Shown here one piece after another: positions 4,374 to 20,506 of a stretch of DNA of 20,553 nucleotides; the first letter of the stretch is position 1; every line of letters starts with the position of its first letter. The DNA comes from a virus. The position numbers and the translations under genes are program-made. The stretch covers positions 1 through 20,553 of IMG/VR virus record IMGVR_UViG_3300038629_000032. The stretch is one strand, 5' to 3'. The notes under the pieces were generated by a model. That model was not told the DNA's origin and made no database searches. It saw only the letters and a list, made by a program, of their open reading frames with translations.

Positions 4374-6868
4374 CCGCGCTTACCGTGTGGTCCTGCTCTT
4401 CCCCTCCAGTTGCCCATACGCCACTTGTCTCCGGTATCAGAGGATGAGACCTTAACTGCAACCTGCCGCGCACGTATTCTGGTTGATACCTTCCTTGTGT
4501 TGGCATCCACCGTGTACGGTCCCTTCGTTATCCTGTCAGCCGCTGGATATTTGCGTCCCGTCAGGTTCACAGTAACGCTACCTTGGAGCGTCAGGAAGTC
4601 GGGGATAAGCTGGTCTACGTGCATCAATTCCTCACCAGCGGTCGGTATCTCCATATCGAATGATTCGATATAGCTTGACATCGCTACGCCGTCAGCATCG
4701 GTGCCAGTCTCATGTTCATACAGGTAACCGTCAGCGCCAGTTGCATAGGCTTTCTCAAACTGGGGTGAGCGATCTGCCCATGCTGTACGAGCCAGCATAC
4801 CAGTAGCCCACGTGCCTTCTTCGTAGTTGTACATCACGTAACGATTCACTTCAATCGGGCTGATGTCAAAGTTCTGTGCAGTCAGTACGCCAACCGGACC
4901 AACTGCAAAGTTGTAGAAGCGGAACGCATTTACAGCTGTTGCCGCTGGTTCCATATGAAGCCCAGCAGAACCGTCTGTGTACAACGCCAGCTCAGGAGTA
5001 GATAAGGCAATCTGCCATACCTGAACGTCATCGAGCCACAAGGTAAGATTTGGTGTGTCGAACTGCACCGTTAGTGTGTACTTCGTATCCACTACAGCTG
5101 CCGACGATATTGCGGTGAACGTAACCAAGCCCGGATCATTATCCAAGACGCTCTTCACGCCGCTTGCGTTCTTCTTCCTGACGCGAATCGTATCAGTAAA
5201 GATGTCAGCCTCAATGTAGATGCCTTGAGCATCATCAGAGGTAGTGTCAGGAGTGCCTGTGATCTCGGTACGCAGGAACACCATGCCACCCCACCGCTCA
5301 GCACCACCACCAAGAGAATCAAACGCAAACTCTACAGCCCACTCACACTCTGTCGGAGTCAGGATTGGCTCATCATTGGTCAGGACGTAATCGTACTCGT
5401 AACCATTATCTGCTGTGCGAGTTGGCGTTGTAAATCCATCAGATGAGTTGAATACGTAGTCGTATCCGATCGTGCCGCTGCCCTGCGATAGAGAAAATCC
5501 CGATGGTAACCTCAGATCGAACGGTTGCTGCGCGTAAGCCAGTGGATCGTACGATGGGTAGAAGAACCAGACCTCATTGAACTCACGATTCAGACCACCG
5601 TAAACCTTGTCTCGCTGATCGACATTAATGAAGTCGTACACCCAGTTGCGTACGTCGCACGGTAGCACCCTGACAATACCGTCATAGATGTAGAAGTCAG
5701 ACTCAGCCATGAAGATTACGCGAGCATCAATCGGTACTGCTGCGTTCGGACCCAGTATGGAGACGTTCTCACCGACCGTATTCAGACCGAAGACATCAAA
5801 GCCACCAAAGAACGGCAATGTGTGAACGCTGACATCCGTGAAAACGATCGTCTCAAGCCGTGAGCGTACGCCTGTGACGATTTTGGAGCCTGAGTATAGT
5901 CTGAGGTCACCTGACGTGTTGGTGCTGGTAGGCACCCAATCATTCAGGTCTTCAGTGGAACACCATCGGATCAACATCGGGTCAAAGGCGTTGTTGAAGA
6001 AGTCGAACGCACCCAGAGCGATCACATGTCGGTCTCGCTGCGAGACGATCATTGCTTCATTGTTGGGTGGCGCGTCACCACCAAATGGAGAGGCTCTTGT
6101 GCCAGTACCTTTAGAGCGATCCCACCAGTACATTTGTCCACCACGTGGGCAGCACAGTAAGTCTTCGCCCCACGTATCGAGGGACCATGTTCGTATTGGC
6201 AGCACCAGTGTTGATCCTGTCCGTTCGTTACCGTAGCCCTCACGCCCATACGGACCTGTGCCGTAGCCAGTAGCCGCGACAGCGGTCTCTTTTCCTATGG
6301 TGATTTGATACTCAGCCCTGACCACTGTGCCACCTTCGTTGGCACCACCAGTAGCCGCTGTACCAGCATTGGTTACCTCATAGAGATTTGGATTAATGAT
6401 CAGATCAACCGTGTACTCACCATTGAAGTCAAGGCCACTGGCTCCACCGATAATAGCATTCGAGAACTCTACGTAGTCACCAAGCTGCGACCCATGATTT
6501 ATGTCAGTAACCTGCACACGTGTCTCACCAGTGAAGGTCTCAAAAGGACCAAGACCACCATTAACAGGCTCTGAGACGTGCCTTAGCGGAGTGATGTCAA
6601 AGAGGGTGCCGTCCTGCCATAGATACAGTTTGGTGTCGGTAGCAATCGCAGACCAGCGCTTGGCATCCAGCGAAGACCAATCCAACAAGCGACGACAGGT
6701 GCCAATGAACTGTGGCTCAACCTTTGTCCAGCCACCTATTTTCTCAGCCAGCCCTTTGCGGAAGCGCACTTTGTCCATCGAGAACCAGCGACCAACAGCA
6801 CCGCGCTCAGACTGCTCAGTATATTGACCAGCACCAATCGGTAAATTAAAGACAGCTTTCTGTGTCAT
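4370..6868 (-). CDS. Tail nozzle / packaged-DNA stabilisation protein with inserted concanavalin-like domain
   Basis: This 832-residue protein probably forms the nozzle that closes the portal channel, the role of P22 gp10 and of nozzle proteins in SU10-type podoviruses. Family-like features are the N-terminal FNLPIGAGQYTEQSERG, VRFRKGLAEKIGGW (34-47), a beta domain with VTDINHGSQLGDYVEFS (119-136), GYGTGPYGREGYG (201-213), FNEVWFFYPS (430-439), NRYVMYNYEEGTWATGMLAR (675-694) and a basic C-terminus (WRMGNWRGRAGPHGKRG). Residues about 450-668 separate FYPS from NRYVMYNY, which I expect to be nearly adjacent in ordinary members. The insert is beta-rich and ends LWLDDVQVWQI...FRFYNFAVG, like a LamG/concanavalin lectin domain. 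The start overlaps the previous stop (TAATG) and the end overlaps the next start (ATGA). Confidence 0.85.
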   Translation of the reverse strand: MTQKAVFNLPIGAGQYTEQSERGAVGRWFSMDKVRFRKGLAEKIGGWTKVEPQFIGTCRRLLDWSSLDAKRWSAIATDTKLYLWQDGTLFDITPLRHVSEPVNGGLGPFETFTGETRVQVTDINHGSQLGDYVEFSNAIIGGASGLDFNGEYTVDLIINPNLYEVTNAGTAATGGANEGGTVVRAEYQITIGKETAVAATGYGTGPYGREGYGNERTGSTLVLPIRTWSLDTWGEDLLCCPRGGQMYWWDRSKGTGTRASPFGGDAPPNNEAMIVSQRDRHVIALGAFDFFNNAFDPMLIRWCSTEDLNDWVPTSTNTSGDLRLYSGSKIVTGVRSRLETIVFTDVSVHTLPFFGGFDVFGLNTVGENVSILGPNAAVPIDARVIFMAESDFYIYDGIVRVLPCDVRNWVYDFINVDQRDKVYGGLNREFNEVWFFYPSYDPLAYAQQPFDLRLPSGFSLSQGSGTIGYDYVFNSSDGFTTPTRTADNGYEYDYVLTNDEPILTPTECEWAVEFAFDSLGGGAERWGGMVFLRTEITGTPDTTSDDAQGIYIEADIFTDTIRVRKKNASGVKSVLDNDPGLVTFTAISSAAVVDTKYTLTVQFDTPNLTLWLDDVQVWQIALSTPELALYTDGSAGLHMEPAATAVNAFRFYNFAVGPVGVLTAQNFDISPIEVNRYVMYNYEEGTWATGMLARTAWADRSPQFEKAYATGADGYLYEHETGTDADGVAMSSYIESFDMEIPTAGEELMHVDQLIPDFLTLQGSVTVNLTGRKYPAADRITKGPYTVDANTRKVSTRIRARQVAVKVSSSDTGDKWRMGNWRGRAGPHGKRG

Positions 6869-8079
6869 TACGGCTCGAACTCTATAATGGCAATAAGTAA
6901 TGCAGATGCAGCCGTCCCTTCATCACCACCACCAGTATCACCAGCCCTTCTTATTTGAAATAGAGAGGATGCTGAATCACGCACATCTGTAGCTGAAACC
7001 GACCACGTTTTAAGGACTGATAGTGCAACCCACGTCCCATCAGCTGCTCCAGTCAAGTCCCAAACTTGACCACCAGTTCCAACTACCGTTCGTACTTCGT
7101 AGTCGCCCGGAGTGATGGAATTACCGTCATACCACGAAGTAGTTAAATTCTGATTGCCGCTCTCAGTATTTATTCTTTGTAAAGTACCACCGCTGTCAGC
7201 CAAGAACCCGTAGCCAACAGTGTCAGTCCCAGAGCTGACAATGACGGCAAAACTGGTTATATCGAAAAGGTTGAGAACACCATCAGTCTCACCCTTCAGG
7301 CGTAATTCAGCACGAAGAGTTGCTTCTGATTTCGCTCCATTGAATGTAGGAGGCGCAAGGTTCTCTGGGAAAAAGGCTGCTCCAGCTCTACCACCGGAAC
7401 CTCCGTTACCAGCCCCACTACCACCAATAATACCTGTGGATGGATTGGCAAACTGACCATAGGTGCCGCCATAACCATAGCCAGACCCTGAACCACCATT
7501 GTTAGTGCCAGATGTGCCACCTGCTCCACCACCACCTGCTGAGGTCTGAGTGCCTGCCGTGCCAGCTGTTGCTATCGGAGAGCCTGTCGGAGAGCCTGCT
7601 GCGCCACCAGCGGCATCACCCCAACCGATGCCACCGCCACCACCGCCGCCCGGAGTACCATCAAGACCAGTGTCGTTGAAACTACCACCACCACCTCCAC
7701 CGCCACCGCCGAGCAGGAAGCCGTCATCAATATCAATATTAACGGCGAAGGTGTCTGATTGAATTGCATGTCCACCGCTACCACCGCCACCACCCTTAGT
7801 GCCTTGGTTGCCGTTATCGTCACCTCCAGCACCACCAGCACCACCTGTTCCGATGAAGCGTCCATTATTGGTAGCGGTAAACTGGAACGTGCTACCCGCA
7901 GCAAAATCAGCCGGGATGATTATTTCCGCAAGATCAACATTGTTTGCTCTGACTACGACATCAACTGGTTCAGACGGAGAGCCTAAAAATACCCATAGGT
8001 CGCCAATGTAGGTGTCGATCTCTGGTTCTACATCAAAGACTCCGCTACCACCGATAAGAGAGATTGGTATGCGCCACAT
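6868..8079 (-). CDS. Glycine-rich adhesin-like tail protein
   Basis: From the ATG at 8079 the product has 403 residues. Residues 1-70 look like a small beta domain (MWRIPISL...). Residues about 72-232 are a glycine-rich block with many GG and GGGGGGG runs broken by short loops. Residues 250-403 form a beta-rich C-terminal domain (W-D-L-T-G..., ending ALLIAIIEFEP). Such blocks resemble the polyglycine-II sandwich of T-even/S16 gp38 adhesins and similar glycine-rich phage tail proteins. I infer a receptor-binding or fibre-tip role. The chosen start overlaps the preceding stop as TAATG, a pattern shared with neighbours. An upstream ATG at 8118 (13 more residues, GGAG 4 bases before it) would overlap the preceding gene by 40 bases and cannot be excluded. 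No cleavage site or catalytic motif is seen. Confidence 0.8.
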   Translation of the reverse strand: MWRIPISLIGGSGVFDVEPEIDTYIGDLWVFLGSPSEPVDVVVRANNVDLAEIIIPADFAAGSTFQFTATNNGRFIGTGGAGGAGGDDNGNQGTKGGGGGSGGHAIQSDTFAVNIDIDDGFLLGGGGGGGGGSFNDTGLDGTPGGGGGGGIGWGDAAGGAAGSPTGSPIATAGTAGTQTSAGGGGAGGTSGTNNGGSGSGYGYGGTYGQFANPSTGIIGGSGAGNGGSGGRAGAAFFPENLAPPTFNGAKSEATLRAELRLKGETDGVLNLFDITSFAVIVSSGTDTVGYGFLADSGGTLQRINTESGNQNLTTSWYDGNSITPGDYEVRTVVGTGGQVWDLTGAADGTWVALSVLKTWSVSATDVRDSASSLFQIRRAGDTGGGDEGTAASALLIAIIEFEP

Positions 8080-8942
8080 TAAATAACAACCACGTTCTTG
8101 ATTATCGACACCAGCCATCGCGCTCCACCAATGTCATTAAGACCAGTGACGTACTCGAAACCAAGGTAATCAATGTTGCCGAATGCCGTTGATAATACAG
8201 GTGCGCCACCAGCTGCCATGAATGCGGAAGACGCAAAAGTCATGGCATGTGGTGCGCCAGTACCCTGCTCAACAAACAAGCTGAACTGCTGCCCGGTAGT
8301 CGCATTGGCAGGTGCTGTTAAATTGAATGCAGCGGTTGTCAGGTGGTAGAAGGCATTACTGTCTGCACAGTCGATGTTGACGTTGCCAGTATCAATAAGC
8401 AGCTCTACTCGTTCTGTTACCTGACCTTGGGTGAACGTCTGTGCTAAAGCCTTTTGTGCAAAGTCTGCACCATCAACACTAATCAACTGAAGAGAATTCG
8501 CGGCTTCCGTTGCGCTCGCTGCCGTTACAGATGTCGCTGCGGATGCTGCGATTACGTCAGTACTGTCGCAGAACACCCACTGTGCCTCACCAGCAATAAT
8601 TGTTGGACCTGTGCCTGCAACCGTCTTCACCACAACATCACCATCGGATGTGTTCGCAACCAGATAAATTTTGCTGCGAGTTGGCACGATGATGTTACGA
8701 GACCCACCGGGTGATCCAAACAGATTAAGGATCATGTAGCGAGCGCTTGTCGCGTTACTGGGACCACCAGCAGTGTCATCCAGCGTGTAGTCCTGTGCGA
8801 CTGTTATATCGAGATCAGCAGTACCAGAGATACCGTCTTCCAGAACCTGAAGAGCGCTGACATTAAGAACGGTTCCCCATGTGTCTGGGTTCTCATCCAG
8901 AGCCTGTAGAGTCATCCTGAGTAATGGGCTAATGGTAGACAT
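8079..8942 (-). CDS. Probable tail fibre / appendage structural protein
   Basis: The product has 287 residues. The N-terminus (MSTISPLLRMTLQALDENPDTWGTVLN) matches the opening seen in many phage fibre and tail-tip proteins, where a P-x-x-WG-x-x-LN segment occurs near residue 20. The middle has an alanine/serine-rich linker near 130-150. The C-terminal part (about 190-287) is beta-rich: FNLTAPANATTGQQFSLFV, then DYLGFEYV and RWLVSI. It starts 3 bases after the stop of the preceding gene, behind a clear AGAGG Shine-Dalgarno site 6 bases from the ATG. I see no enzymatic motif. It lies among neck and appendage genes, so it is probably a virion component, but the family is uncertain. Confidence 0.7.
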   Translation of the reverse strand: MSTISPLLRMTLQALDENPDTWGTVLNVSALQVLEDGISGTADLDITVAQDYTLDDTAGGPSNATSARYMILNLFGSPGGSRNIIVPTRSKIYLVANTSDGDVVVKTVAGTGPTIIAGEAQWVFCDSTDVIAASAATSVTAASATEAANSLQLISVDGADFAQKALAQTFTQGQVTERVELLIDTGNVNIDCADSNAFYHLTTAAFNLTAPANATTGQQFSLFVEQGTGAPHAMTFASSAFMAAGGAPVLSTAFGNIDYLGFEYVTGLNDIGGARWLVSIIKNVVVI

Positions 8943-12506: not shown

Positions 12507-13421
12507 TTACGTGCTGCCAGAGCTGCCGAATGCACCTCGGTAGTCAGACCAACCGAACGTGTAACGCTCACGAGCTTTGTACCGCATGTTGCCAGTTTCA
12601 AAGTCGCCTTCGAGTCCACGTTGGATGTTCTTCCTTACCATGTGCTTCAAGCCATCCGGGCAATCAGTAATCAAAGTCCACGCATTTGGGTCCGTGAGAC
12701 GATGATTCTTGTAAGAGCCACCGGGGATCATGCTCATCTTCTTAATGGCATTAATGTCGTTGTCTGCCGTACCGGGACGGTAAGGAGACATCAACAGCCG
12801 TTCAGCGACGAAACATAGGTCGGTTGGGATGATGAGCTTGGCTGCTCGTACAGCGATCGGGATAGAACGCTCGTCAACAAACTTACTGATGGCGATCAGA
12901 GCTTCCTCTAACGAGGTCTCCGACAGATCAGCCTGTGTTGAGAACGTGTTCGCCTGAACGCCACCGCCGAAGAGTGGATGTAACGTCGAGAACAACTCAA
13001 CTCCGTCTCCACCCGGAAAGGCAGAATCGAAACCGTTGTTCAGGATAGCTGCACCTTTAACTTCTTTGGTGTGCTGCATTGAGCGTGCAAGTGCCTTGGA
13101 GTACTTAGAGCCGAATGATCCATACAGCCCATCTTCCTCAGCTTCTTCCGTCAGGGAGAAGGCAAGGGCGATAGTCTCGTGGACGTATCGTGACGTGAAC
13201 GCTTCGCCGCCCTGATCATAAGTGACCGGAGCGCCTTCAGGCTTAACTGGAGCACCAGCCAGACCTGCAAGCAACACATCTTCTTCATACGCTTTGATGG
13301 AGTTTTCTACCGCATAGATAGGTCTCCATTCCTGCTCGTACCTACGAAACTCCAACCCGAAGACGGTGTTCAAGCCTTCTTGCAGGAGCTTCCTAAAGCG
13401 AGCGCGATTCATAATAGCCAT
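12507..13421 (-). CDS. Major capsid protein (HK97 fold, Mu gpT-like type)
   Basis: The 304-residue protein matches the phage major head subunit type often labelled Mu gpT-like. The N-terminus is helical (MNRARFRKLLQEGLNTVFGL). A conserved stretch follows with SRYVHETIALAFSLTEEAEE and DGLYG (about 80-105). The next block is HTKEVKGAAILNNGFDSAFPGGDGVELFSTLHPL (about 120-155). After it come a helix, DLSETSLEEALIAISKFVDE (about 165-184), and a beta C-terminus. Length and motif order are those of HK97-fold subunits that form the shell. A strong AAGGGAG site lies 8 bases before the ATG. It is preceded by scaffold and decoration-type genes and followed by a terminator-like structure. No N-terminal delta domain or neighbouring protease was found, so assembly probably uses the separate scaffold. 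Confidence 0.88.
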   Translation of the reverse strand: MAIMNRARFRKLLQEGLNTVFGLEFRRYEQEWRPIYAVENSIKAYEEDVLLAGLAGAPVKPEGAPVTYDQGGEAFTSRYVHETIALAFSLTEEAEEDGLYGSFGSKYSKALARSMQHTKEVKGAAILNNGFDSAFPGGDGVELFSTLHPLFGGGVQANTFSTQADLSETSLEEALIAISKFVDERSIPIAVRAAKLIIPTDLCFVAERLLMSPYRPGTADNDINAIKKMSMIPGGSYKNHRLTDPNAWTLITDCPDGLKHMVRKNIQRGLEGDFETGNMRYKARERYTFGWSDYRGAFGSSGST

Positions 13422-13435
13422 TATTTATGCTCCCT

Positions 13436-14029
13436 TTAGATGGATGCGAGTGGCGATGCGACCAGAGCGCTCTCGGACATAACCACGTCTACACGTGCGT
13501 TATCTGCCGATGCGTCTGATAGAAAAATGCCATCAGGTGCGAGTGAAAGTCCAAGGACTTGGAACTTAGCAGTACCAGCTGCTGGTTGAGCCAGCGAAAA
13601 ACCGGAAACTCCGGTTGCGGCATTGCCTGCCCCAGCGACGAGATCAGCGTACAGATGTACGTCAGCTGCGACAAAAGCTCCATCCTGTTGGACGGAAAAA
13701 ACGATATTCAGGTCGGTGTACACGAATGCTTCAGCATTGACCGAACCAAGAGTGACTGTACCGCTCACCCATTGTTTCGCCCATACAACATCACCGTTAG
13801 CAGCGGTGTACTGGCACCCGGCAAAAATGCCAAGTACCGGACCACCAGTGCCGGATACGTCGATGTTGTTGCCGTCACCTGCCGGGGTTGCGTGCATGAT
13901 TACTGCATCACCCAAGAAGATGTCAGACGCTAAAGCGGATGCGATTGAAAATCCACCTGTATATCGCACGAGACCACCAGAGCGGTGGCGAACGGGAGTA
14001 AACCCGTTAGGTGCGTCGAGATTTGGCAT
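13436..14029 (-). CDS. Probable capsid decoration / head structural protein
   Basis: The product has 197 residues. It opens with MPNLDAPNGFTPVRHRSGG, a start typical of phage head proteins that precede or follow the capsid gene. The rest is almost wholly beta-type: DIFLGDAVIMHATPAGDG, GPVLGIFAGCQYTAANGDVV, EAFVYTDLNIVFSVQQDG and SVFLSDASAD-like segments. Such a plan fits a trimeric decoration or cement protein. It has GAGGT about 9 bases upstream and lies 11 bases after the previous gene and 14 bases before the capsid gene. The decoration role is inferred from composition, size and position. Confidence 0.7.
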   Translation of the reverse strand: MPNLDAPNGFTPVRHRSGGLVRYTGGFSIASALASDIFLGDAVIMHATPAGDGNNIDVSGTGGPVLGIFAGCQYTAANGDVVWAKQWVSGTVTLGSVNAEAFVYTDLNIVFSVQQDGAFVAADVHLYADLVAGAGNAATGVSGFSLAQPAAGTAKFQVLGLSLAPDGIFLSDASADNARVDVVMSESALVASPLASI

Positions 14030-14040
14030 TGAACATTACC

Positions 14041-14598
14041 TCATTCATCGTCAGCCACCCCGACGGGTTGTACCCGCTGTGTAGGGTGGGTCACCGATGT
14101 TTTATGATCCTTCACAATCGGATGACCCGCTATCTGGGCCGACTCTAGGTCGTGTTCAACGCCATACATTTGAGCTGCTGTTTGCTGCTCAAGCGACTTC
14201 TTGCGCTTCATAAGGACACGAGAGTCGATCTCCATCAAGATGAGATCATCCACCACAATCATCCCTTCAGCTGAATTCGCAAAAGTGGCATAAACGCGCC
14301 ACTCCTCAGACAGTGTGTCAGGTGACCGAGGTCTCCATCCTTCACGCCATGAGCGATTCAAATTCTTGGGATCGTCCACACCTCGAATTGACTTCCTGAC
14401 CCATCGTTGGGTCATTCCATCCTGAGCCGGGGGTGCGTCGAGCGAACTCGGTCGAACCCATGGGGCTTCAGCTTGTTGGTGGGTGGCATCGTACTCCGAG
14501 GTCTCATCCACACGAGTCTCGTGTCCATGGTCTACGCCATGGGTGGTAACAGCTGGTTTAGGTGCTACCTTTTTTCTTACTGGTTTCTTAGCAGTCAT
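14041..14598 (-). CDS. Conserved-type head-module protein of unknown role
   Basis: The product has 185 residues. The N-terminus is basic and disordered (MTAKKPVRKKVAPKPAVTTH, rich in lysine, proline and histidine). The core (about 48-95) has RPSSLDAPPAQDGMTQRWVR, then DDPKNLNRSWREGWRPRSPD. This core is of a kind I recall from hypothetical proteins between scaffold and capsid genes of environmental podoviruses. A helix follows (DLILMEIDSRVLMKRKKSLE, about 117-136), then a tail rich in histidine. It starts inside the scaffold stop (ATGA), so it is probably coupled to scaffold translation. It may be a scaffold partner or an internal head protein; the sequence does not decide this. Confidence 0.65.
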   Translation of the reverse strand: MTAKKPVRKKVAPKPAVTTHGVDHGHETRVDETSEYDATHQQAEAPWVRPSSLDAPPAQDGMTQRWVRKSIRGVDDPKNLNRSWREGWRPRSPDTLSEEWRVYATFANSAEGMIVVDDLILMEIDSRVLMKRKKSLEQQTAAQMYGVEHDLESAQIAGHPIVKDHKTSVTHPTQRVQPVGVADDE

Positions 14599-15638
14599 CG
14601 TTTCTCTCCTTGCTCGGCTTCTCGCTTATTACGTGCAAACTCTCTCAAGACCTCTGGGTCGTTCGGGTCAAGATTAAACTGCCGCATAGTTCTGAAGTCC
14701 TCCGCATCGAGTTCAACTTTGCTACTACTAGATCGCTGGTGGCGTGTTTCATTGCCACTGACCGGAGCTACAACAGGTTTGCCTCGTCGCTTCCCGGTGT
14801 CGGTGTCATCGGCACCAGCTTCTAAATCATCATACAGTTCCGGTGCTCTCTCCTTAATACGCTTGTTTAACTCTTTGAAATACTGCGGCGTATCAGGATC
14901 GTAACCGTCTGCATAAACTTCCTTATCAAGGCGATTGGCAAGACGGGTCTGTCGTTCAAACCCGTCTTGTTTATACCAATCACCTTGGTCTTCCATCCAC
15001 TTCGACGTTTCCGTATCCGCGTCTTTCCGACTCGTTGGTGTAACTCTATCATCAAATGGTTGTACATTACCATCTAGTGGTAGGTTTGTGAGGTTGGCTT
15101 GAGCCATCACTTTGTCAGCTTTCAGATCAGTAAGCCGCGACGTGAGTCGCACCTGATCGTCTGTCTTACCGTCCTCAATAGCTTGTTTGAGATCGGCCTG
15201 AACTTGCGTGATGCCCTCACCAGCCTGTTCGACGGTTTTCTCTAAGCTCCGCTTGTCTCGATCGTAGGAGTCTTTAGCAAGACGAGTCGCCTGCTCCTCC
15301 CAGTAATCACCGCGCTGTTTTTCCTTAGCCGTTGCTCGTGTAGCGCGTTGAATTCTCGACTTAACTTTCTTCGAGTAGTCGTCATCGTCACTGGCATTAC
15401 TTGCATCCTGCTTCCCGGTGTCCTGCGTATCGGCTGCTGAATCATCTTCAACGTCTGCGGATCGCAATCCATCGAACTGCTGGTTGTCGTCGTTGCCGTC
15501 ATTAGTATCTGCCGATTGTGCATCGGGAGATAACTGAATGCCGTCGTCTTTCGTGTCAGCGTCCAAGTCCACAGTAACAGGTTCTTTCTCCTGCATACCG
15601 TGTAAGTCTTCAAAAACTATTTCGTTTTCTATAGCCAT
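14595..15638 (-). CDS. Head scaffolding protein
   Basis: The product has 347 residues from the second of two adjacent ATG codons. AGGGG lies 6 bases before this one and only 3 before the ATG at 15641. Residues about 18-88 are strongly acidic and of low complexity (many D, Q, N and S). A charged helical region follows, about 90-185, with likely coiled coil: KKVKSRIQRATRATAKEKQR and LKADKVMAQANL. The second half is helical and ends in a basic segment (EFARNKREAEQGEKR). Acidic, helical proteins of this size just before the capsid gene are the usual scaffolds of short-tailed phages, which guide shell assembly and then leave. The C-terminal basic helix would be the expected capsid-binding part. 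No protease motif is seen. Confidence 0.78.
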   Translation of the reverse strand: MAIENEIVFEDLHGMQEKEPVTVDLDADTKDDGIQLSPDAQSADTNDGNDDNQQFDGLRSADVEDDSAADTQDTGKQDASNASDDDDYSKKVKSRIQRATRATAKEKQRGDYWEEQATRLAKDSYDRDKRSLEKTVEQAGEGITQVQADLKQAIEDGKTDDQVRLTSRLTDLKADKVMAQANLTNLPLDGNVQPFDDRVTPTSRKDADTETSKWMEDQGDWYKQDGFERQTRLANRLDKEVYADGYDPDTPQYFKELNKRIKERAPELYDDLEAGADDTDTGKRRGKPVVAPVSGNETRHQRSSSSKVELDAEDFRTMRQFNLDPNDPEVLREFARNKREAEQGEKR

Positions 15639-15650
15639 CATTCACCCCTG

Positions 15651-16040
15651 TTAAATATATGCGCGGAACTGAGTCGGGTCATCAACGATAGCCATAATGC
15701 CATCGTCGTTCATCGACAAATATTTCACGCCGTTCTTCATGATCACCTTCTGCCCACCATAGGTGCCATAAATAATCCAATCACCAATCTTCGGCTTAGG
15801 ATCAACGTCTGCCAGATTAATGCCTGATCGCGTGATAGCCTTGTAGCAGAGGTTACCCATCGCTACGATTTGACCGACATACGTCAGGTACTCTTCTGAC
15901 TCCATTGAATCACCTCCATATATGATGCCACCCGCAGATTCTTTGGGCGGCGCATATGGACGAATGATCACGCGCCATCCGATCGGTGTGAGTGGTAACT
16001 CAGCATCGATCTTTGGCTTCACGAAAGCGACCTCACTCAT
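15651..16040 (-). CDS. GroES-like co-chaperonin encoded in the head operon
   Basis: This 129-residue protein aligns with bacterial GroES (Cpn10, about 97 residues). LTPIGWRVIIRPYAPPKESAGG corresponds to the GroES core start LHDRVIVKR. The mobile-loop equivalent, SAGGIIYGGDS, keeps the GG plus hydrophobic tripeptide (IIY in place of the usual IVL). Further on, YVGQIVAMG, PKIGDWIIYGTYGGQKV and a closing DDGIMAIVDD match GroES strands. GroES caps GroEL and helps fold substrates in the cytoplasm. By analogy with T4 gp31, the phage protein probably works with host GroEL on a capsid or related protein. It starts at the ATG at 16040 with GGAG 7 bases before it and overlaps the previous stop. A GTG at 16043 is less well spaced. 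Homology is clear; its partner is inferred. Confidence 0.85.
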   Translation of the reverse strand: MSEVAFVKPKIDAELPLTPIGWRVIIRPYAPPKESAGGIIYGGDSMESEEYLTYVGQIVAMGNLCYKAITRSGINLADVDPKPKIGDWIIYGTYGGQKVIMKNGVKYLSMNDDGIMAIVDDPTQFRAYI

Positions 16041-16269
16041 CACTCATCTCCGGTAAGTTATCGCCTTCGTCGTCTGGCTCTTCCGTTGCCTTCAACATCT
16101 GACTAGCCAGACTTCCTGCCCGGTCGTAACCAGCAATGATCCCGGTTATCTTCTTGTACTCTTCAAAGTCCTTGCATTGACCCTTACCGAGCTTTGCTGC
16201 CTCGGTAAAAGCTGCCTGTTGTAATCCTTTCTGAAAATCTTCAACAAATTGTCTAAGTGACACTTGCAT
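16033..16269 (-). CDS. Small acidic-tailed protein, unknown role
   Basis: The product has 78 residues. The first half is helical (SLRQFVEDFQKGLQQAAFTE). GQCKDFEEYKKITGIIAGYD follows at about 30-49, then another helix and a strongly acidic end (EEPDDEGDNLPEMSDE). I do not recognise it beyond its likeness to small proteins that follow the portal gene in other podovirus genomes. A very good AAGGAG site lies 8 bases before its ATG. It overlaps the preceding gene by 17 bases and the co-chaperonin start by 8 bases. The one cysteine and the lack of any enzymatic motif suggest a small structural or assembly factor. Confidence 0.65.
   Translation of the reverse strand: MQVSLRQFVEDFQKGLQQAAFTEAAKLGKGQCKDFEEYKKITGIIAGYDRAGSLASQMLKATEEPDDEGDNLPEMSDE
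16048..16051 (-). promoter_or_regulatory. Shine-Dalgarno site selecting the co-chaperonin start
   Basis: GGAG lies 7 bases before the ATG at 16040 but only 4 before the in-frame GTG at 16043, so the ATG is preferred. The site is within the end of the previous gene. Confidence 0.55.
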
Positions 16270-16435
16270 CTATCTTTCTCCTTGCTACACCTGCCAGTTT
16301 ATCGAGCAGTGTTTGGTATGACGCGCCAGTTTCATTAGCGGAACGGGCGAACTGTCGAGGGGATACACCACGAACTCCTCTCTTGCGGAGGAACTCGCGT
16401 GCTGCACGCACATCTTTTGGTTTAACTTGTGCCAC
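16253..16435 (-). CDS. Small basic helical protein overlapping the portal stop, GTG start
   Basis: From the GTG at 16435 the product has 60 residues. It is basic and helical (VKPKDVRAAREFLRKRGVRG). A second part has the pattern SPRQFARSANETGASYQTLL, which recalls small conserved proteins behind portal genes and loosely a helix-turn-helix. AAGG lies 9 bases upstream. An earlier in-frame GTG at 16522, with AAGGAG 4 bases upstream, would give 89 residues but overlap the portal gene by about 100 bases, so the shorter form is preferred. Function is unknown. Confidence 0.6.
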   Translation of the reverse strand: MAQVKPKDVRAAREFLRKRGVRGVSPRQFARSANETGASYQTLLDKLAGVARRKIDASVT

Positions 16436-18851
16436 TCGGTCGTGCCTTTTTCGTTGTCGCAGCTTTTGCCGCTGCCAGTTTATCTTCTCTTGTGATCTTC
16501 GCTTCGTTAGCTCTTGCTTCACGTTGCTCCTTACGACCTGCCATGAAGTCTTCGCGACGTTCTTTATCCATCGCTGCCATCTCCTGACGTTCTATCTCTG
16601 CGAGGGTGCGCTCATCCTGACGTGCCATCTCTCTGTCGTGGGCATCATCCAGTCTCGCCTGCTCGCGCTCATGCACCTCATCGTCCGGGTCCATGCTGTC
16701 TTCAGGGTCCATGATCTGTATCTGTGGAACCATGGCTGCTGCCTGTGCGATCTGCTGCTCTATCTCAGGTGGCATTGGCTGATCTGGTCCGAACTGACCC
16801 GGCTGCGGTAACTGGTTACCCAGCTTCCTCTGCATCTCCACGAAATACTTGAACGAGTAATGCTGCGCCATGTGCGCTTGCATCAGCGGTCCCAACTGCT
16901 CAAGTGCCTCTGGTTGCAGACCATTGACAAAGTTCATGTGCACCTTGATGTGTGCGTCATGGTCTTGGTCGATGAACGGCTGAGCTGACTGCCCCTGAAG
17001 CATGTTCATGTTCTCCATCACTGGGTCTTCACGCTGCGGCTCGTTCTTCTGCAACACACCCTCTGGATCAGGTATGCGAATAGCCTTCAGGAAGCGCTCT
17101 TCTACTTCCATGCGGTTGTACAGGTCTGGCGCTTGTGTTGCTCTCTCGATCAGCGCTTGTCCCTGAGCGATCCTCTGAGTGCTTGAGAAGATGTTCGGGT
17201 CACTGATCGGAATGACATCGACTCTGCCATCGTAGTCCTCACGCAGCACTACCGACTCAGGGTCTGCCACCTTGTATGGATACTGGTCCGGCAGAAACTC
17301 ATAGTTGAGTTCAGCTCGGAGTTTGAACTCTTCAGCTGCCGCCATGTGAAGGCGACGATGGATGGCAGATAAGGGCTTGCTGCCTTGCTCTATAAGCGCG
17401 ATGGTAGTGCCCACCGGACCAGTATTTGATGCCTCACCTGTCAGCACTTCAGTCGAGCTGCTGAACGCCTTGCCTGCGCCAAGCAGGACCTCGAACAGTT
17501 TAGCCAGTGCTGGTGATGGGTCTTTGAATGGTGGCGTGTAGAAGGCTCGGTTCAGCTCCTCAGCTGACATGTTCACTTCTTTGTACAGCCCCGGCGTGAT
17601 GTGTTCATCACCCGGCTTCATCTTCGCATCGTTGGAGACGTAGCCACCCTGCATGTTGGCGAACGCAGCACTATCGAGCAGCGCTCTGATCGTACCAGAG
17701 GTTGCCTCAGCCACACTGCCAATCATATGCAACAGTCCAAAGCCGTAGAAGCCCAGACCCGGCAGGTATTTGTAGTGCGTGAACCAGATGCGCTTTTGCA
17801 TCAACTGGTCATCTTCCTTCCAGTTGCGACGGATAGATAGGCACTCACGTGTCTCACGCTCGATGGTGACGATGTACGGCAGTGGTGACTGCTTTTGGTA
17901 GCGCTCTTGGTCAGCGTCGATCATTAAGTCGCAGTGACACTCAAGCACGGTGTACACGTTGTCATCAGTGTGCACGTCAGCTGTTCGTGAGTCAGCCTGA
18001 TCAGCATGATCCCGAATGCGATCGTCACCAGTGTCTGTTGCGTACGGTGTCAGGTCGGGCAGCTCTAATGGCTCCCAGAACCCAGACTCGAACAGCTTCT
18101 TCATCTCCGTCGAGTTCTTGAACATGCGATGCGTGTAACGTGGTGAGGACGCAAGGTCTGTCGCGATGTACGGCACGATGAAATCAGTCGATGGAATGTA
18201 ACGACTCACCACCATGTTGCTGAGGCTGTCCCAGTACGTCTTCTTGAATGCTGAACCACCCAGCGGCAGATAGAAAAGCATCGAGTCCACCTGCCAGAAG
18301 TAGCTACGGTCCTGATCAAGAATCTGGTAATTCATGTGATTCTTGATGCGGTCAGCCTGCTCTTCTTTCTCGCGGGTAATCTCACCAACGATCTTCGTCT
18401 TCACTGGTCCTTCGGATGGGAATATCTCTTCGATGGCACGCGCCTGAAACTGCACCACAGCTTCACCGATGAGAGGGTACGTCACAGCAGAGGCACCATC
18501 GAATGGCAGCTCTTCCATGGGGATGTTGTTCAGGCCCAGCAGCTCCATGGCTTGATCCATGCGCTGTTCCCAGTCCTTGCGAGACTCGATATCAGTCTCC
18601 ACCCACTCGATCACATCATTAGACAACTTCTGAAGCTCGGTGCGCGACAGGTCGAACATGATGTTCGATGCGTGCTCATCGCTGTCGTCTCGCGACATAC
18701 GACTCATGCCCGGATTGAAGTCAACCGTGGCACTGTTGCCTCGACGTGTTATCTGTGCGCCACCAACCTTACCAGAGAAGCCTTCGTCCTCCATCTCTGG
18801 CATCTCCGGGCTTCGCCCAAGTTCTTGCATATCTTCTGGTCGTGTTGCCAT
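16422..18851 (-). CDS. Portal protein
   Basis: The 809-residue protein is of the size of P22/T7-class portals of short-tailed phages. It forms the twelve-subunit ring at one head vertex through which DNA enters and leaves. Family-like stretches are DWEQRMDQAMELLGL (93-107), LPFDGASAVTYPLIGEAVVQ (115-134), ARAIEEIFPSEGPVK (137-151) and SMLFYLPLGGSAFKKTYWD (190-208). Long helical and wing-like segments follow. The last 96 residues (about 714-809) are extremely charged and probably form a long helix (HEREQARLDDAHDREMARQD). That may reach into the head like the P22 barrel, but this is inferred. AGAGGA lies 5 bases before the ATG, and 2 bases separate it from the terminase stop. No frameshift is seen. 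Confidence 0.85.
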   Translation of the reverse strand: MATRPEDMQELGRSPEMPEMEDEGFSGKVGGAQITRRGNSATVDFNPGMSRMSRDDSDEHASNIMFDLSRTELQKLSNDVIEWVETDIESRKDWEQRMDQAMELLGLNNIPMEELPFDGASAVTYPLIGEAVVQFQARAIEEIFPSEGPVKTKIVGEITREKEEQADRIKNHMNYQILDQDRSYFWQVDSMLFYLPLGGSAFKKTYWDSLSNMVVSRYIPSTDFIVPYIATDLASSPRYTHRMFKNSTEMKKLFESGFWEPLELPDLTPYATDTGDDRIRDHADQADSRTADVHTDDNVYTVLECHCDLMIDADQERYQKQSPLPYIVTIERETRECLSIRRNWKEDDQLMQKRIWFTHYKYLPGLGFYGFGLLHMIGSVAEATSGTIRALLDSAAFANMQGGYVSNDAKMKPGDEHITPGLYKEVNMSAEELNRAFYTPPFKDPSPALAKLFEVLLGAGKAFSSSTEVLTGEASNTGPVGTTIALIEQGSKPLSAIHRRLHMAAAEEFKLRAELNYEFLPDQYPYKVADPESVVLREDYDGRVDVIPISDPNIFSSTQRIAQGQALIERATQAPDLYNRMEVEERFLKAIRIPDPEGVLQKNEPQREDPVMENMNMLQGQSAQPFIDQDHDAHIKVHMNFVNGLQPEALEQLGPLMQAHMAQHYSFKYFVEMQRKLGNQLPQPGQFGPDQPMPPEIEQQIAQAAAMVPQIQIMDPEDSMDPDDEVHEREQARLDDAHDREMARQDERTLAEIERQEMAAMDKERREDFMAGRKEQREARANEAKITREDKLAAAKAATTKKARPSGTS

Positions 18852-18853
18852 GG

Positions 18854-20506
18854 TTATCCTCTTTGACCACCGTAAGTGCGAACTGGTTTGTTCACGTGGT
18901 TCATCAGGTTGTCGTTATCGTCGTCATCGTCAAGGAAGTCAGCACTCCACTTCTTCCTCAACCACAGCATTGCCATGGTCACTGTATCCACCATGTCATC
19001 ATGATCATCAGCCGGGAAATTACCGCACTGGCTGATGACCTCTTGTGCCCAGTTGCGCTTCACGTAGAAGATGCAACCACGTTCCAATACAAGAGAGGCA
19101 GCGTGCGCTCGCACGAACTTCGAGTCAGTGACCTTTATTCGAGCGACGGGTAAATTCGCACGTCGCATCTCCTGCGCCAGAGAGTGACCGGATGCCTTCT
19201 TCTCGATCAGCACCTTATCTGGTTTCCATAGCTCAGCTGCCATCATTGCGTTCTCGCGCAACTCAGGGAACTCCATACGCTTGTTCAGTCGCTCCAGCAG
19301 GATCAGGCACAGTCGTGTCTGTCCTTTGTACTGGGCAGTCCATGGTAGTTTGCGATTGAGCCGCTCTTCGTACTCGAACACACCCCACGTGGTCCGGGCA
19401 CTGTAGTCGTGCTCCTCGTCCTCTTCAAAAGCGGTGTCGTAGGACTGGATGATCATGGACAACTCTGGCAGCTCTGGCTCTTCCCACTCACGCCAGTGAT
19501 GCTCCTTCATGATGTTGCCGCCCTTGGCTGAAGGGTTCTGCTGAATCTGTGACTCGAAGCCTCGCTCAGTCAGCTCCATGGAGAGCTTACGCATCTCATC
19601 AGGACCGAAGCGATCCTCTTGCAGTAAATCGTTCTCCAACTTACGCGGGTCAGAGAATATAACCTGTTCGTTGTGTAGCGGCTGTATATGGTCACCGAAG
19701 GTGAAGATTTCAGGATCAGCCGGGATGATTCGCTTGCTCTCTTTCTTTGACTTGGTGATACAGCGAGTCTTTGGTACGAAGTAGCCGGGAAGGTTGAGGT
19801 GCACCCACCCACCAGTCGAGAGCACATGACCCGGTAAATCCTGATGGTGACCACGCTGGGCAATGATCACTCGACCCAGTTTCTTCATGTCGTTACCACG
19901 TGTTGACATGGTGTCACGCCACCAGTCGATCACGCCTGCACGGATGGTATCGGAGTTGATCTCCTTCATGTTGTGAGCGTCATCTACGACGATACGATCA
20001 CCACCCTCCCCGGTAGCAGTGCCACCGACTGACGTTGCCAGCCTGTAGCCATAGTAATCGTTGTCGAACCTCCCCTTCTGGTTCAGGTCGCTCGACAACT
20101 GAAAGCAATCCCCGAAATGTTCCTGATACCACGGTGACTGTATTAGTCGGCGGCACTTCACGCTGTCTCGAATCGTCAGGGATGAAGCATACGTTGCAAA
20201 CAGCCACTGTATTGATGGATTCCATGTCCACTCCCATGCAGGCCACATGACTGCGACCAAGGTTGATTTCGTGTGTCGTGGTGGGATGTTGATCACCAGA
20301 TCATCGATATCACCAAGCGACACGTAGGTGAGGTGCTCACAGATGGCATCGATGTGCCAACCACCCTTGAACTCCTTACCGGGTTCCACAACATGCCACG
20401 CTTGCTCGATGAAGCTGCGAAGGTCGCGCTTCATGTCCTCAGCCTGAATCTGTGTCCACATTCTTGTGGCTGAGTGCTGGTCGATTGCTTGTGGGATCAC
20501 ACTCAT
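18854..20506 (-). CDS. terL: Terminase large subunit (ATPase and nuclease)
   Basis: The product is 550 residues from the ATG at 20506. This motor packages DNA through the portal and cuts the concatemer. The ATPase half has a Walker A-type loop INIPPRHTKST (about 72-82) and a Walker B strand RIVVDDAHN (171-179). The nuclease half has an RNase H-like pattern. The acidic residues lie in IQSYDTAFEE (Asp357 region), KVLIEKKASG (Glu435 region) and NFPADDHDDMVDT (Asp500-507). The end is a run of aspartates and asparagines. The frame remains open for 15 more codons to the right edge (ending SREVLQSTN before this ATG). No clear Shine-Dalgarno site precedes the ATG, so the true start may lie upstream of the window. 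A small terminase is not in this window. Confidence 0.87.
   Translation of the reverse strand: MSVIPQAIDQHSATRMWTQIQAEDMKRDLRSFIEQAWHVVEPGKEFKGGWHIDAICEHLTYVSLGDIDDLVINIPPRHTKSTLVAVMWPAWEWTWNPSIQWLFATYASSLTIRDSVKCRRLIQSPWYQEHFGDCFQLSSDLNQKGRFDNDYYGYRLATSVGGTATGEGGDRIVVDDAHNMKEINSDTIRAGVIDWWRDTMSTRGNDMKKLGRVIIAQRGHHQDLPGHVLSTGGWVHLNLPGYFVPKTRCITKSKKESKRIIPADPEIFTFGDHIQPLHNEQVIFSDPRKLENDLLQEDRFGPDEMRKLSMELTERGFESQIQQNPSAKGGNIMKEHHWREWEEPELPELSMIIQSYDTAFEEDEEHDYSARTTWGVFEYEERLNRKLPWTAQYKGQTRLCLILLERLNKRMEFPELRENAMMAAELWKPDKVLIEKKASGHSLAQEMRRANLPVARIKVTDSKFVRAHAASLVLERGCIFYVKRNWAQEVISQCGNFPADDHDDMVDTVTMAMLWLRKKWSADFLDDDDDNDNLMNHVNKPVRTYGGQRG

Follow-up and report, generated by a model that had tools for sequence, protein, structure and literature searches.

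The viral sequence that we analysed (hereafter, the window; 20,553 nucleotides) encodes a GroES-like co-chaperonin within its head operon. Across the loci that we sampled, this gene is linked to the gene for one lineage of major capsid proteins; the linkage runs in both directions, is nearly absolute, and usually spans about 2 kb. We consider it probable that the protein caps the host's GroEL so that one of the phage's head proteins can fold, with the major capsid protein as the leading candidate. The gene and its slot in the head operon were known before from related phages. What this analysis adds is the measured two-way linkage, the separation of these proteins from host GroES as a clade, and the extension of the mobile loop that they share.

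The gene is on the minus strand at 15651-16040, where the plus strand is interrupted by stop codons. It has an ATG at 16040, an in-frame GTG at 16043, and a stop codon at 15651-15653; counted from the ATG, the protein has 129 amino acids. The sequence GGAG lies 7 nt upstream of the ATG. An earlier note on this DNA had placed an open reading frame at these coordinates, correctly but without giving the strand, and had called its product a GroES. Profile searches agree, as Cpn10 is the best match in both Pfam and PHROG. In Pfam, the sole match is PF00166 (Cpn10; 38.2 bits versus a cut-off of 21.1, E = 1.5e-9, covering profile positions 2-93 of 93), and the top PHROG is PHROG_3188, "co-chaperonin GroES" (E = 1.1e-14). 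Both E values are far beyond chance. The closest sequence in the PDB is GroES from Xanthomonas (3nx6, E = 1.6e-7). The gene is also under purifying selection: in a pairwise comparison with one relative (L003), dN was 0.11 and dS was 0.93 (dN/dS about 0.11). Given the Pfam and PHROG matches, dN/dS, and the predicted fold and loop count described below, the gene almost certainly belongs to the GroES/Cpn10 family. No RNA families or tRNAs were found in the window.

An AlphaFold2 model of the monomer, built from 85 aligned sequences, had a pLDDT of 83.9. When we compared this model to the PDB with Foldseek, GroES from GroEL-GroES complexes headed the list (E = 1.7e-7, target TM up to 0.76), and the best viral matches were GroES proteins from uncultured viruses. 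The co-chaperonin of phage T4, gp31, was lower in the list (rank 34, 13% identity). The predicted fold thus has the GroES beta-barrel, and the sequence keeps a mobile loop with a hydrophobic triplet; by the earlier note, a predicted fold without the barrel and the loop would have spoken against its reading. Compared with E. coli GroES, the protein has 32 extra residues, which are scattered along the chain: about 14 at the N terminus, four in the mobile loop, six in the roof segment, and about eight at the C terminus. The note had suggested that about 30 extra residues might widen the cage or alter the loop. The second idea is partly right: the loop is four residues longer, across the lineage. 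A pair of cysteines in the roof segment (C65/C83) was considered as a conserved feature and rejected because they are not strictly paired among the relatives and the window's protein lacks C83.

The head genes around GroES are all on the minus strand. Upstream are the large terminase subunit (18854-20506, 550 amino acids; PF17289, PHROG_38) and the portal protein (16422-18851, 809 amino acids, 92 kDa; PHROG_1216, portal, E = 5.8e-25). Two small open reading frames then intervene, so the note was right to place GroES two genes after the portal. One encodes a basic protein of 89 amino acids (16253-16522; 58-91% identity in close relatives) and overlaps the 3' end of the portal gene by about 100 nt, although its true start may lie downstream. 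The other encodes 78 amino acids (16033-16269) and is directly upstream of GroES, whose start it overlaps by 8 nt; it has tblastn homologues in relatives (29-57%) and matched no known family among the Pfam and PHROG profiles. After GroES comes a putative scaffolding protein (14595-15641, 348 amino acids, pI 4.5), followed by two conserved head-module proteins, one of 185 amino acids (14041-14598; PHROG_36003, unknown function) and one of 197 amino acids in a decoration-like position (13436-14029; PHROG_37556, unknown function). Next is the major capsid protein (12507-13421, 304 amino acids, 33.6 kDa; PF25209, PHROG_371), which we propose as the main client. There are 2230 bp from the end of GroES to the start of the capsid gene. 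The earlier note had put GroES just before the scaffold, and that position is right; the scaffold itself matched no family or PDB profile, and we assign it, as a putative scaffold, from its position, its acidity, and its charged, helix-forming composition. Orthologues at the same position in other phages are just 15-24% identical to it. Elsewhere in the window, among the tail-region genes, a 416-amino-acid protein (6868-8118, minus strand) has a long glycine-rich central stretch.

Close relatives keep the full order of the window's head genes. Their capsid, portal and terminase proteins are 77-96% identical to the window's, and where the capsid protein is 89-96% identical, GroES reaches 61-83%; of the two, the lid is thus the faster-evolving protein. 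This looks as if GroES were adapting to different host GroELs. In a 65-kb contig binned as Desulfuromonadales (L252, JAQYVZ010000022.1), the capsid protein is 90% and GroES 69% identical to the window's; this is a weak hint that the host belongs to the class of the Desulfuromonadales.

The same slot is occupied by GroES in a wider set of phages whose capsid proteins are 37-56% identical to the window's. The shared order is terminase, portal, one or more small open reading frames, GroES, putative scaffold, two genes, and major capsid protein. GroES is already annotated in this slot in Roseobacter phage CRP-902, Pelagibacter phages HTVC027P and HTVC023P, phage DSL-LC04, Caulobacter phage RW, phage 023Pt_psg01, Planktothrix phage Pag-Yong1, Alcaligenes phage QDWS535, and several spring-water phages. 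It counts as one of the 13 core genes in a set of 82 HTVC023P-type pelagiphages (PMC9599517) and is labelled in CRP-901-type genomes (PMC10149686). The window's GroES is therefore another case of a known kind.

To quantify the linkage, we scanned viral contigs and bacterial assemblies with an alignment of the capsid proteins and with two sub-alignments of GroES, as an alignment of all 11 named GroES proteins was too diverse. Starting from the capsid gene in viral contigs, GroES was found 1.9-2.4 kb upstream in all 56 informative loci (from the best 80 of 213 to about 600 matches); another 24 loci were uninformative because the upstream sequence was too short. In bacterial assemblies, 58 of 61 loci had GroES upstream, at about 2 kb except for two (3.1 and 3.8 kb). 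One of the three loci without it (L270) was set aside, leaving 58 of 60, because its scaffold has 100-N gaps, including one that falls between the place where GroES is expected and the capsid gene. The other two belong to the group of most distant capsid relatives. The total is 114 of 116 informative loci, with the viral share drawn from those best 80 matches. In the reverse direction, the capsid gene lay 1.9-2.3 kb downstream of GroES in 128 of 128 informative loci (best 80 of 213 to about 600 matches per viral scan). As the best matches were used, the viral counts represent the nearer relatives. The earlier note had placed GroES inside the head operon of this genome, and the association is stronger than one genome could show. 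Matches in Acinetobacter phage MD-2021a were set aside because they are a bacterial groS-groL pair inside bacterial sequence.

The linkage is looser among the most distant capsid relatives. Three of these (L324, L330, and MW202601) have no GroES in the slot, and in MW202601 none was seen nearby. Another distant relative, the predicted Methanomicrobiales virus BK063670.1, has groS at 100-456, upstream of the terminase and outside the head slot. (A groS gene would be odd there if the archaeal host depends on a group II chaperonin.) These cases imply that the capsid fold itself does not strictly require GroES. Separately, a single 4.8-Mb contig of Phenylobacterium sp. J367 contains two relatives of this head module (L294 and L312), each with a GroES of its own, so temperate or domesticated members may exist in the wider lineage.

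In a maximum-likelihood tree, a single branch (support 100/99) separated 49 GroES proteins of phage head modules from 13 host GroES; several branches are long, which leaves the inner order unsure. The host sequences were taken from genomes, including those that harbour the relatives as prophages or assembly contigs, except for the E. coli row, which is a sequence that we take to be E. coli GroES. Because the genomes that harbour the relatives are represented, recent capture is unlikely for the window's lineage. Host-type GroES was found in 11 of the 12 bacterial assemblies that we searched; the twelfth is small and probably incomplete. No Cpn60/GroEL was found in 15 phage records (some of which are fragments), which leaves the host's GroEL as the partner.

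The part of GroES that contacts GroEL is the mobile loop, and in the window's protein its anchor, I39-I40-Y41, follows G37-G38. The mobile-loop-like segment that the earlier note had read as SAGGIIYG is present in the product (ESAGGIIYGG). Position 39, equivalent to I25 of E. coli GroES, is isoleucine, leucine or valine in 85 of 85 relatives. Across these sequences, position 41 (equivalent to L27) is mostly leucine and position 40 (equivalent to V26) is variable. Mutational work found that I25 and L27 are essential for binding GroEL and that V26 is not (PMC5575113), and the conservation of the phage proteins fits this pattern. The tyrosine at the L27-equivalent position of the window's GroES is unusual. 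Some relatives have a degenerate loop (L178, with GDSDIV; L332; L325), and others have lysine at position 41. Considering the loop pattern together with the predicted fold, the window's GroES very likely docks on host GroEL.

The phage GroES of these head modules typically have a mobile loop that is four residues longer than that of cellular GroES. We counted the residues between the anchor isoleucine and the glycine that closes the loop. This length was 12 in all 67 cellular GroES examined, and 16 in the window's GroES and in 104 of 105 phage sequences from one alignment. In a second, partly overlapping set, it was 16 in 51 of 61 loci, and most of the others had 17. Among seven GroES from unrelated phages, the length was 11-12 in five, 9 in one, and 17 in one. 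The extension parallels T4 gp31, whose loop is longer than that of GroES (22 versus 16 residues) and whose chamber is slightly larger (PMC6318259). A literature search, which did not cover the work of Marine et al. (2017) on chaperonins of viruses in virioplankton, found no earlier report of the extension. At 33.6 kDa, the window's capsid protein is well below gp23 (56 kDa); it would not need a wider cage on grounds of size, and capsid-protein size alone does not account for the longer loop. As a side observation, four loci (L415, L416, L417 and L418), from genomes in the same phylum as a Flavobacterium single cell (G016), encode a second, divergent Cpn10 paralogue beside a normal GroES; its open frames have 139-181 amino acids, its loop segment has 14 residues, and its roof segment has about 30.

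If the protein works as we propose, GroES would be made together with the head proteins, would assemble as a heptameric ring, and would dock via its mobile loops on the host's GroEL; the closed chamber would then fold one of the phage's head proteins. The most likely one is the major capsid protein, whose gene lies about 2.2 kb further downstream. We moderately favor the capsid protein as the main client, given the linkage and the precedent of T4, where the phage co-chaperonin gp31 has the capsid protein gp23 as its client (PMC6318259). Linkage by itself does not set the capsid protein apart from its neighbours, because the putative scaffold and the two genes after it travel with GroES as well. 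The client might instead be one of these, or the portal. All are nearer to GroES than the capsid gene is, all are co-inherited with it, and the start of GroES overlaps the small open reading frame before it. At 92 kDa, however, the portal is too big to fit inside the closed chamber. Scaffolding proteins tend to be flexible and helical, and the known chaperonin clients are capsid proteins. These include T4 gp23 (PMC6318259). Overall, another head protein as the client seems rather unlikely.

Alternatively, the lid might serve the takeover of the host in general, by boosting or redirecting GroEL folding for many phage proteins or by displacing host GroES, without any special tie to the capsid. 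The predicted fold is that of a generic GroES, other phages carry GroES outside of head operons, and T4 gp31 can also substitute for GroES with host proteins (PMC6318259). Nevertheless, a near-absolute linkage at a fixed distance to one capsid lineage is not expected for a general accessory gene, and we view this explanation as a serious but minority possibility. A GroES fold that has lost GroEL binding and been repurposed for the virion or its assembly, such as a ring at the portal vertex, would suit a gene inside the head operon and the degenerate loops of some relatives, but it is improbable given that the GroEL-contact positions match the known mutational pattern across the family. Finally, phages do carry host-like chaperonin genes, such as the GroES-GroEL pair of Flavobacterium phage immuto, so the gene might be a recent capture from a host, carried as passive or metabolic cargo. 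This reading is already contradicted by the separate clade, the strong purifying selection, and the fixed place in the head operon, and we give it very little weight.

A broader proposal is that this is a capsid-dedicated lid for GroEL, inherited with one lineage of major capsid proteins across phages of many bacterial groups, that independently evolved a lengthened mobile loop like that of T4 gp31. We offer it tentatively and would sooner bet against it than for it. If it is true, then phage lids are commonly tuned for capsid proteins, even for ones that fit the ordinary cage; the tuning might act on how high the cage is, on affinity, or on the competition with the host's GroES. The four-residue extension is a precise feature to trim or to swap into laboratory GroES. 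In a very common assemblage of phages, the head module includes the GroES lid as regularly as it does the scaffold and the capsid protein, and the question of why this capsid needs its own lid becomes testable in the culturable relatives.

Among known systems, several unrelated large phages (BcepSaruman, GAP32, immuto, and Bacteroides phage DAC16) also encode a member of the Cpn10 family. Unlike the window's GroES, theirs have a canonical loop (11-12) and no adjoining annotated head gene, and in immuto GroEL adjoins GroES. Bacterial GroES (PF00166) have the fold, the GroEL-contact triplet, and the conserved core in common with the window's protein, which differs in its length (129 versus about 97 amino acids), with four more residues in the loop, six more in the roof, and extensions at both termini, and in falling outside the cellular clade. 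T4 gp31 resembles it in being a phage-encoded lid that serves the host's GroEL, in having a capsid client (proposed, for the window), and in its longer loop. However, gp31 lacks the roof loops and is 14% identical to GroES (PMC6318259), whereas the window's protein can be recognised as Cpn10 from its sequence and has retained a roof segment, one that is longer than E. coli's; neither its sequence nor its closest fold points to kinship with gp31. The HTVC023P-type pelagiphages and CRP-901-type roseophages (MN698239, MN698241, OQ401624; PMC9599517, PMC10149686) carry a GroES of the same family in the same slot, with the long mobile loop, and their capsid proteins are 53-56% identical to the window's. 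Their GroES are 27-40% identical to it, and those of the pelagiphages have longer N-terminal tails. The window represents a different phage, probably with a different host.
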